Below, piece by piece: positions 41,783 through 44,022 of a DNA stretch of 64,000 nt. A model generated the notes under the pieces. The model made no database searches. It saw only the letters and a program-made list of their open reading frames with translations, and was not told where the DNA came from. A program made the position numbers and the translations under genes. Every line of letters starts with the position of its first letter. The stretch's first letter is position 1. Source of the DNA: Streptomyces pyxinae (GTDB lineage Bacteria; Actinomycetota; Actinomycetes; Streptomycetales; Streptomycetaceae); the NCBI RefSeq assembly GCF_024756275.1, contig NZ_JANUGQ010000006.1, positions 186,001-250,000 on the forward strand, read 5' to 3'.

Positions 41783-43897
41783 TCAGCCGGCCCGGCGGTG
41801 GACCTTGGAGCGGGACCGCTTCTCCAGGTACATCCGCTGGTCGGCGGAGTTCAGCACCTCTTCCACGGACATGCCGCACTCCGCCCAGCCGATGCCGAAG
41901 CTGGCGCCCACCCGGACCGCCCGGCCGTCCACCCGGATGGGCGGCAGGATGCCGTTGCGCAGCCGCGCCGCGAGATCGGCCGCGTCCGCCGCGCCCAGCC
42001 CGTCCGCGAGCACCACGAACTCGTCACCGCCCAGCCGGGCCACCGTGTCCCCGTCCCGCACCCCGGCGGTGAGCCGCCGGGCCACCTCGATCAGGACGGC
42101 GTCCCCGGTGTGGTGGCCGAACCGGTCGTTGATCGACTTGAAGCCGTCCAGGTCGCAGAAGAGCACCGCCAGCCCCTTGGTGCCGTCGTCCACCTCGCCG
42201 GCCGGGGCGACCGCGTGCACATGGTGGTCGTACGGCCCGGCGAACCCGCCCCCGGCGAAGTCGAAGCCGTCGCCCCGGTAGCCGCCCCCGCCCCGGTAGC
42301 CGTCGTACCCGGGGCCGTCGTGGCTCTCCTGGCCCCCGTGATCGTCCTGGCCCCCGTGACCCTCGTCGTGATTCCCGTAACCGTCGTGACCGTCGTAGCC
42401 CTGGTGACCCTCGTGACCGCCGTGGGCCTGGTGGCTCTCATGACCGTCGTGGGCCTCGTAGCCGTCGTGTCCCTGGTGACCGTCGTGACTCTGGTGACCG
42501 TCGTGTCCCTGCTGACCGTGCGGGCCGTCCTGCCCGCCGTACGCGGCCTGCTCGCCGTAGCCGGCACCGGCGGGTGCGTACTCGGGGTGCGCGGGTGCGT
42601 ACTCGGGGTGCGCGGGTGCGTACTCGGGGTGTTCGGTGTACTCCGCGTACTCGGGACACGCGGCGTACCCGGGGTACGCGGGATGCCGCGCCGGGAGCGC
42701 GGCGCCGGCCGGCCCGGTCCCGTGTCCGCCGGGGTACGCCCCCGCCCCTGTGTCGTACGTCCCGGGCTCGTACGCCCCCGAGTCGTAGGCGCCCGCCGCC
42801 GCGCGGACCGCGTGCGGGCGGGCGCAGAGCCGGGCGCTCAGCCGGGCGCGCAGCTCGGCGCTGTTCGGCAGGCCGGTCAGCGCGTCGTGCGAGGCCCGGT
42901 GGGCGAGCTGGAGCTCATGGCGCTTGCGCTCCTCGATGTCCTCGACATGGGTCAGCAGAAAACGCGGCCCGTCGGCCGTGTCGGCGACCACGGAGTTCCG
43001 CAGCGAGACCCAGACATGGGTGCCGTCCCGCCGGGCCAGCCGCAGCTCCGCCCGGCCGCCCTCGGCCGACGTACGGAGCAGGGTGCCCACGTCCTCGGGG
43101 TGGACCAGGTCCGCGAAGGAGTGCCGGCGCATCACGGCGGCCGGCCGGCCGAGCAGCCGGCAGAGGGCGTCGTTGGCGCGGAGCAGCCGGCCGTGCTGGT
43201 CGCCGCCCATCTCCGCGATGGCCATGCCGGACGGGGCGTACTCGAACGCCTGGCGGAACGACTCCTCGCTGGCCCGCAGCGCCTGCTGCTCCCGCTCCAG
43301 CCGGACCAGGGCGCGTTGCATATTCGCGCGCAAACGGGCGTTGCCGATGGCGATGGCGGACTGGGAGGCGTACATCTGGAGCGCCTCGCGCCCCCAGGCC
43401 CCCGGGCGGCGGCCGTTGCGCGGGCTGTCGACGGATATGACGCCCAGCAGCTCCCGGCCGCTGCCGGAGGCGTACATCGGGGCGTAGAGCCGGTCCCGGG
43501 GGTGCCACTCGTCCTCGAAGCGCGGATCGGGACCATCGGTGTACCACTGCGGCACGTCGTCGTCGATCAGCGCCCAGCCCTCGGTGTGCGGTATGAACCG
43601 CAGGTCGCCCCAGGCCTCGCCCATCGAGAGGCGGCGCTCCCAGGAGGCCCGGGAGCCGACCCGGCCGGTGATCAGGGCCTCGGCGGCCGGGCTGCCGGCG
43701 AACGCGGCGACCACCAGATCGCCGTCGGGGCGGACCAGGTTGACGCACGCCAGCTCATAGCCGAGACCGGCGGTGATGCCGTCGGCGACGGTCTGGAGCG
43801 TCTCGGCCAGGCTCCGGGCCGTATGGAGATTGGCGACGACCTGATGCAGCTGCCGCAGGGTGGCCAGGCGGACGTACGGCTCCGACTCGGTCTCCAT
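41783..43897 (-). CDS. cdgB: Diguanylate cyclase CdgB-type (GAF-PAS-GGDEF) with His-rich insertion
   Basis: 704 residues. GAF domain about 15-185, PAS/PAC about 205-320 (VHPEDVGTLLRT, LTHVEDIEERKR), then the GGDEF domain from HDALTGLPNSAELRARL (about 336). The catalytic RLGGDEFVVL is near 621 with an inhibitory-site RDGD just before it, so c-di-GMP synthesis and product inhibition look possible. Between about 355 and 572, where cyclases normally have some 10-15 residues, is a low-complexity insertion: Ala/Tyr-rich, then HPEYAPA repeats, then a HDGHQ-type stretch with about 20 His. CdgB controls Streptomyces development and is a BldD target. ATG 43897 has GGGGAG upstream. Confidence 0.88.
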   Translation of the reverse strand: METESEPYVRLATLRQLHQVVANLHTARSLAETLQTVADGITAGLGYELACVNLVRPDGDLVVAAFAGSPAAEALITGRVGSRASWERRLSMGEAWGDLRFIPHTEGWALIDDDVPQWYTDGPDPRFEDEWHPRDRLYAPMYASGSGRELLGVISVDSPRNGRRPGAWGREALQMYASQSAIAIGNARLRANMQRALVRLEREQQALRASEESFRQAFEYAPSGMAIAEMGGDQHGRLLRANDALCRLLGRPAAVMRRHSFADLVHPEDVGTLLRTSAEGGRAELRLARRDGTHVWVSLRNSVVADTADGPRFLLTHVEDIEERKRHELQLAHRASHDALTGLPNSAELRARLSARLCARPHAVRAAAGAYDSGAYEPGTYDTGAGAYPGGHGTGPAGAALPARHPAYPGYAACPEYAEYTEHPEYAPAHPEYAPAHPEYAPAGAGYGEQAAYGGQDGPHGQQGHDGHQSHDGHQGHDGYEAHDGHESHQAHGGHEGHQGYDGHDGYGNHDEGHGGQDDHGGQESHDGPGYDGYRGGGGYRGDGFDFAGGGFAGPYDHHVHAVAPAGEVDDGTKGLAVLFCDLDGFKSINDRFGHHTGDAVLIEVARRLTAGVRDGDTVARLGGDEFVVLADGLGAADAADLAARLRNGILPPIRVDGRAVRVGASFGIGWAECGMSVEEVLNSADQRMYLEKRSRSKVHRRAG
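42190..42835 (-). repeat. Repeat-rich segment inserted in cdgB
   Basis: In-frame low-complexity DNA. Three 21-bp-type copies at about 42565-42640 encode HPEYAPA, and degenerate GTGACCGTCGTG-type repeats at about 42330-42520 encode HDGHQ and related His/Gly/Asp units. Confidence 0.85.
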
Positions 43898-44022
43898 TGT
43901 TCGCTCTCCCCGAGACCTCGACAGCAACTCCAGGATTCTCATCGACACTCATCTGGTCCTGCCTCGCCACTGAATCACAATGAGCTGTGCACCCGGTACA
44001 CAGGGTCAACAATTCCTGCCCT

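Follow-up and report, generated by a model that had tools for sequence, protein, structure and literature searches.

CdgB is ranked among the most conserved and abundant c-di-GMP enzymes of the genus Streptomyces and of S. venezuelae, and excerpts of the same paper tabulate its architecture as GAF-PAS-PAC-GGDEF and describe as unknown which signals these Streptomyces enzymes detect through their sensory domains (PMC6205966). The S. coelicolor protein is an active cyclase in which the first glycine of the GGDEF motif is numbered 472, and cdgB is reported as a BldD target (both from portions of PMC4151990). E. coli DgcZ, according to an excerpt of PMC8262984, is regulated through a 3His/1Cys zinc core. 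The available sections of PMC6205966 and PMC4151990 describe no insertion in CdgB of S. coelicolor or S. venezuelae, whereas the CdgB studied here carries a loop of 232 residues. Calculated from the published numbering, with the start taken to be the same, the loop of the S. coelicolor enzyme comes to roughly 75-80 residues; as that enzyme is active, a loop of this size would not prevent cyclase activity. We found no description of such a loop in the open-licence literature on CdgB with zinc, cysteine or disorder. The word "insertion" is absent from PMC6205966, PMC11012013, PMC7374567 and PMC7911125 and occurs once in PMC7026642, for a plasmid, and the passages of PMC4151990 around "disordered" and "CdgB" describe no loop.

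The window (the whole 64,000-nucleotide stretch of Streptomyces pyxinae DNA analysed here) carries cdgB on the minus strand at 41783..43897, stop included. The open frame is unbroken over 721 codons (43948-41786) and encodes 704 aa from a conserved ATG at 43897, where the orthologues also begin (METESEPYVRL). Pfam matches a GAF domain at residues 30-184, a PAS domain at 213-321 and a GGDEF domain at 574-696, the architecture given in the published excerpts for CdgB of S. coelicolor and S. venezuelae. The RDGD I-site and the GGDEF active-site motif are both intact (42017..42058, minus strand), the latter at 42017-42031 with RDGD five residues upstream, and identity to 13 aligned orthologues is 76-93%. 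By these domains, motifs and identities the protein is a CdgB-type cyclase with predicted cyclase activity, in agreement with its preliminary description as an otherwise complete cyclase. The GGDEF half of the gene was matched in 387 of 392 genus genomes (E up to 1e-40); those without a match at that threshold (G008, G065, G126, G143 and G169) reflect either absence or draft gaps. A BldD-box-like site, another likeness to the S. coelicolor and S. venezuelae genes, lies on the plus strand at 43996..44008, some 100 bp before the cdgB start codon. With one mismatch to the palindromic consensus, it is the only match of this quality in the window and, despite 3.3 such matches expected by chance, it fits the reported targeting by BldD.

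The loop within the GGDEF domain

The alpha1-beta1 loop of the GGDEF domain spans 42167..42862 on the minus strand, with 232 residues between DALTGLPN (DxLTGLPN) and VLFCDLDGF. It is about 213 residues longer than that of outgroup cyclases (18-19 aa) and about 150 longer than that of the median orthologue (85 aa). The preliminary description of an insertion of about 200 residues splitting the GGDEF domain at 42190-42835 was therefore accurate, its span falling within the loop. Reading in the direction of translation, Cys358 (42824..42826, in the triplet RLC, loop position 13) marks the N-terminal rim and is followed by a variable Tyr/Gly/Ala-rich stretch (42632..42823), by three copies of a 21-bp repeat encoding HPEYAPA (42572..42631; 100% matches, given as 42570-42631 by the repeat search), by a His-rich repeat expansion of 76 aa (42290..42517) built of HDGHQ-like units of 6 residues or 18 bp, and by the conserved motif YDHHVHAVAP (42203..42232), which holds H559 (42221-42223), H561 (42215-42217) and P565 (42203-42205), all on the minus strand.

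Structure prediction places this loop, mostly disordered, between the elements of the GGDEF fold. In the AlphaFold model of the window's CdgB, pLDDT is below 50 for most of residues 359-573 and no secondary structure is formed there, while the GGDEF elements follow in order on both sides. A known domain within the loop was sought and ruled out, since five loops matched 0 Pfam families at E up to 10. Only GGDEF and PAS domain models of NCBIfam passed their cut-offs, with one weak collagen-like match over the loop. Among 53 matches to solved structures, 52 align from residue 566-578 onward, approximately the loop end, and the other (3ewk) covers the PAS part; the top 50 rows of the fold search held GGDEF-bearing proteins and nothing on the loop.

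The loop was then compared across orthologues. From 280 loci, 275 were parsed into 249 distinct sequences, of which 246 have a long loop; the other three are cyclases of another family in the same order, with 19-residue loops. In this non-random set, nearly all labelled Streptomyces and including some frames picked as long or short, loop length ranges from 59 to 232 aa (median 85), the window's copy being the longest and a Kitasatospora copy of 182 aa the runner-up. The window's loop holds 26 His in total, against a median of 5.5 and a range of 2-14 in the other orthologues. Open-frame lengths were taken from three listings (G347 is in none of them, and nothing can be learned from genes truncated at the end of a contig); every listed frame longer than that of the window was read, and their loops are shorter, at 76-120 residues. 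An insertion unique to this strain was thus ruled out, all 246 distinct orthologues carrying a long loop. The lengths of CdgB across Streptomyces bear out the insertion itself, but not the idea that it is peculiar to this gene: the window's copy is the extreme of a general orthologue trait and not as a singular event. Judging from sequences and structure models, the CdgB of nearly all sampled Streptomycetaceae has a predicted disordered alpha1-beta1 loop in its GGDEF domain. None of the seven further GGDEF domains in the window's genome carries such an insertion; their loops are short. One CdgB frame (L196, in G204) is broken upstream of the loop, possibly by a frameshift or an assembly error; the trees described below leave out this apparently frameshifted sequence as well as L169, which is cut.

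Conservation at the two ends of the loop

A Cys at loop position 13 and an HxHxxx[P/L] motif close to the loop end occur together in 283 of 291 distinct CdgB-type proteins, while eight have neither and none has one alone; the Cys is thus found in 283 of 283 proteins with the motif and in 0 of 8 without it. All 246 distinct orthologues have HxH and 245 of them HxHxxxP, the exception (L222) having Leu for Pro, and 282 of the 283 carriers have a Pro at the fourth position after the second His. The distance between Cys and HxH varies from 26 to 201 residues, while that from the start of HxH to the loop end is 17-20 residues in 260 of the 283 carriers; the rim is therefore fixed and the interior not. 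Column entropy agrees, at 0 bits for the Cys and both His and about 2-3.5 bits across most of the adjoining variable interior. An Asp or Glu precedes the first motif His by two positions in 253 of 283 carriers, and the residue between the two His may be V, E, T, L, A or Q. CAT encodes the first motif His in 112 of 245 orthologues, mostly in a CAT-GTG pairing, but makes up about 7% of the His codons elsewhere than in the loop.

Conservation of the motif at the DNA level was considered and ruled out, third codon positions being variable. Fitch minimum codon changes, counted over 279 rows (273 with the motif, and the window entered twice, as L001 and L281), amount to 20 at the Cys, 58 at the first His and 12 at the second His, all of them silent, and to 60 at the motif Pro, where one sequence has Leu. 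Such repeated but almost wholly silent changes show purifying selection on the rim at the protein level, as read from these codon alignments. Loop positions 2, 3, 4, 7 and 8 of alpha1, before the Cys, are also invariant among carriers; several of these residues are common to the outgroups too, unlike the Cys. A duplicate CdgB-like gene in another genome (L145; G007, 3001 bases) has SLN in place of the DLD of beta1 and has kept the Cys, HVH and an intact GGDEF motif; it is perhaps a decaying or a regulatory duplicate. What evolution keeps in this loop is, by all these comparisons, the Cys and HxHxxxP at its ends and not the His repeats. The comparison also cautions that conspicuous His repeats in a single strain are probably noise, and that conservation lies in the inconspicuous residues next to them.

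The eight proteins without the rim features are the outgroup L142, six from genera g15 and g18 and one from g23. Both the Cys and HxH are also missing from L141, L143 and L157-159, which lie outside the family; L141 and L157-159 have 19-aa loops and L143 likewise lacks the insertion. These outgroups were read separately and are excluded from the larger tree set, in which 322 of 330 loci were parsed. In the outgroup-rooted tree, genera g15 and g18 branch off first and all carriers fall in one group, which also holds the non-carrier L303 and whose support is weak (0.665). A single gain close to the base of the family is the probable origin of the insertion and its rim, and the co-occurrence of Cys and HxH accordingly counts as one event. 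Outside family f1, the motif was found in none of the matches listed for 148 class-wide genomes, 11 of them of the window's own genus, although the alignments of these matches start at query position 10 at least, after HxH, except in G565 and G522. The latter two reach the motif position, and on reading HxH is absent from both.

A candidate metal or redox site and competing readings

We consider it possible, at somewhat below an even chance, that the disordered loop is closed by a metal or redox site made up of Cys358, H559 and H561, with D557 as a further possible member. The alpha1-beta1 loop presumably lies on the side of the GGDEF domain away from the active site, as in known GGDEF structures. 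Its interior would be free to lengthen and shorten by replication slippage, the window's copy being one swollen by His/Gly/Asp repeats, and its function would reside at the rim, in the invariant Cys at the end of alpha1 and the invariant HxH some 17-20 residues before beta1, the latter usually set within [Y/F]D-x-HxH-xxx-P. A candidate Cys/His2 site, perhaps completed by an Asp or an adjacent His and probably occupied by zinc, may clip the loop ends together. Loss of the metal or oxidation of the Cys would then open the clip, shift the GGDEF geometry or the dimer contacts and so tune c-di-GMP output. Metal binding, the identity of the metal and the effect on activity are inferred here. The extended proposal, in which a Cys...DxHxHxxxP site built into this conserved developmental cyclase gates c-di-GMP synthesis, and hence the timing of sporulation and antibiotic production, while letting the loop grow freely, is more speculative and on balance unlikely. 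If it were true, metal loss or Cys oxidation would set the timing of both processes. The invariant Cys plus HxH in the catalytic domain of CdgB offers a concrete handle on whether Streptomyces development is under metal or redox control.

A metal or redox site is favoured by a Cys and an HxH that never vary among carriers and always occur together, by the silence of their codon changes, by the contrast between a fixed rim and a variable interior, by the duplicate that retains Cys and HVH though its DLD became SLN, by the lack of the loop in the genome's other 7 GGDEF domains, and by analogy with the 3His/1Cys zinc core of E. coli DgcZ. Against it, both AlphaFold models, that of the window's CdgB and that of a short-loop orthologue, are of low confidence around HxH, with the Cys at the edge of the low-confidence segment (pLDDT below 50 from residue 359 for Cys358 in the former and from 361 for Cys359 in the latter). 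The perfect co-occurrence probably stems from one gain, and three ligands are few for a stable zinc site, the fourth being a guess. Moreover, the five invariant helix residues before the Cys mean that it could be kept for packing.

This last point bears on the reading that comes next, in which the rim residues serve packing or the docking of a partner protein rather than a metal, the interior being a neutral linker and the His repeats slippage noise. We regard this as a serious though less probable alternative; the invariance of the helix residues beside the Cys led us to raise our estimate for it slightly and to lower that for a metal site. The position of the motif at a fixed distance from beta1, the largely conserved aromatic-Asp and Val/Ala/Pro residues, which would suit a docking strand, and the pN/pS of the repeats (0.67) all fit it. 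Yet none of the 283 carriers has a substitution at the Cys or at either His, despite variation at the position that separates the two His, a pattern more like that of ligands than that of a binding strand. A metal or redox site is, just short of an even chance, the best single account, followed by packing or docking.

Such a site, if correctly read, would liken CdgB to DgcZ and the CZB cyclases in having a Cys/His metal site that controls a GGDEF cyclase (as far as the excerpt of PMC8262984 goes). The two differ in layout: in CZB the 3His/1Cys set sits in a helical domain of its own at the N-terminus, whereas in CdgB the candidate ligands flank a disordered loop within the GGDEF fold, and Pfam returned no CZB match for the full CdgB (E up to 0.01) or for five loops (E up to 10). 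The pattern [Y/F]DxHVHxxxP resembles the DxHxHxxxP metal-binding strand of dihydroorotase, an amidohydrolase-type motif. At E up to 10 the five loops hit no amidohydrolase profile in Pfam, so the resemblance extends to a few residues only, without profile support for kinship.

Selection could also act on composition and not on sequence, the loop being a sticker-rich disordered region that promotes pH- or metal-dependent clustering of the cyclase. Across the 246 orthologues, loop centres are enriched, relative to the rest of the protein part read, in Tyr (7.0% vs 1.8%), Phe (5.2 vs 2.7) and His (5.8 vs 2.7) and are low in Lys (0.1 vs 1.0), as clustering would have it. However, this composition may follow from GC-rich slippage, some loops are poor in aromatics (e.g., L223, L238) and nothing ties the loop to clustering, which makes this reading improbable.

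Origin of the histidine-rich repeats

The preliminary description had drawn attention to the HDGHQ-like part of the loop, credited with about 20 His, and had offered two accounts of it: binding of Zn, Ni or Cu that renders c-di-GMP output metal-sensitive, or neutral slippage in a loop. The richness in His stands; the count is somewhat lower, this part holding 16 His in its 76 residues. HypB, UreE and SlyD possess His-rich metal-binding tails which, as in the window's loop, are disordered His/Gly/Asp repeats. The CdgB repeats differ from these in being private to one lineage, in lying inside a catalytic domain and in showing no clear selection on His.

In a gene tree built without the loop, the eight rows of the window's sister clade have loops of 89-127 aa with only 2-5 His, which argues that the HDGHQ expansion is private to the window's lineage. 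The His part consists of eight degenerate 18-bp units whose pN/pS of 0.67 suggests only a weak departure from neutrality. Its Gly codons lean towards GGT and GGA (11 of 23, against 4 of 46 in the rest of the gene; Fisher p = 4e-4), as expected if the units were copied from one ancestral unit. Different repeats occupy the same place in other lineages (e.g., L030, L061, L115, L119 and L317). Slippage in a tolerated, disordered loop is the economical account of the expansion, and the repeats are probably neutral, so that of the two early accounts the neutral one agrees with the absence of the expansion from the sister clade, with the pN/pS and the Gly-codon bias, with the predicted disorder and with the other repeats grown at this place. 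As a conserved feature the His repeats were ruled out, being private to the window's lineage and nearly neutral.

The account in which the repeats of this strain act as a Zn, Ni or Cu sensor draws on their density, since the richest 75-residue stretch holds 17 His and none of 2000 shuffles of the 721-residue frame exceeded 13. Lineage-restricted and near-neutral evolution speak against it, as do the few loop His of the sister clade and of the other orthologues, and His-Gly runs that arose elsewhere (e.g., L030, L115, L119, L061) have other spacings; metal-sensing by the repeats thus finds no support in the comparison and appears quite unlikely.

Although the genome is a draft in 78 contigs and the loop contains three exact 21-bp repeats, an assembly artefact is very improbable because the longest exact direct repeat of the insert (41 bp) is below the usual sequencing read length, the His repeats are degenerate and the frame is open and coding-like. 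The insert looks coding by its GC content at codon positions 1-3 (0.84/0.54/0.88, against 0.74/0.51/0.93 for the part upstream and 0.76/0.48/0.98 for that downstream), and at the sequence level the insertion in the window's CdgB is confirmed as real.
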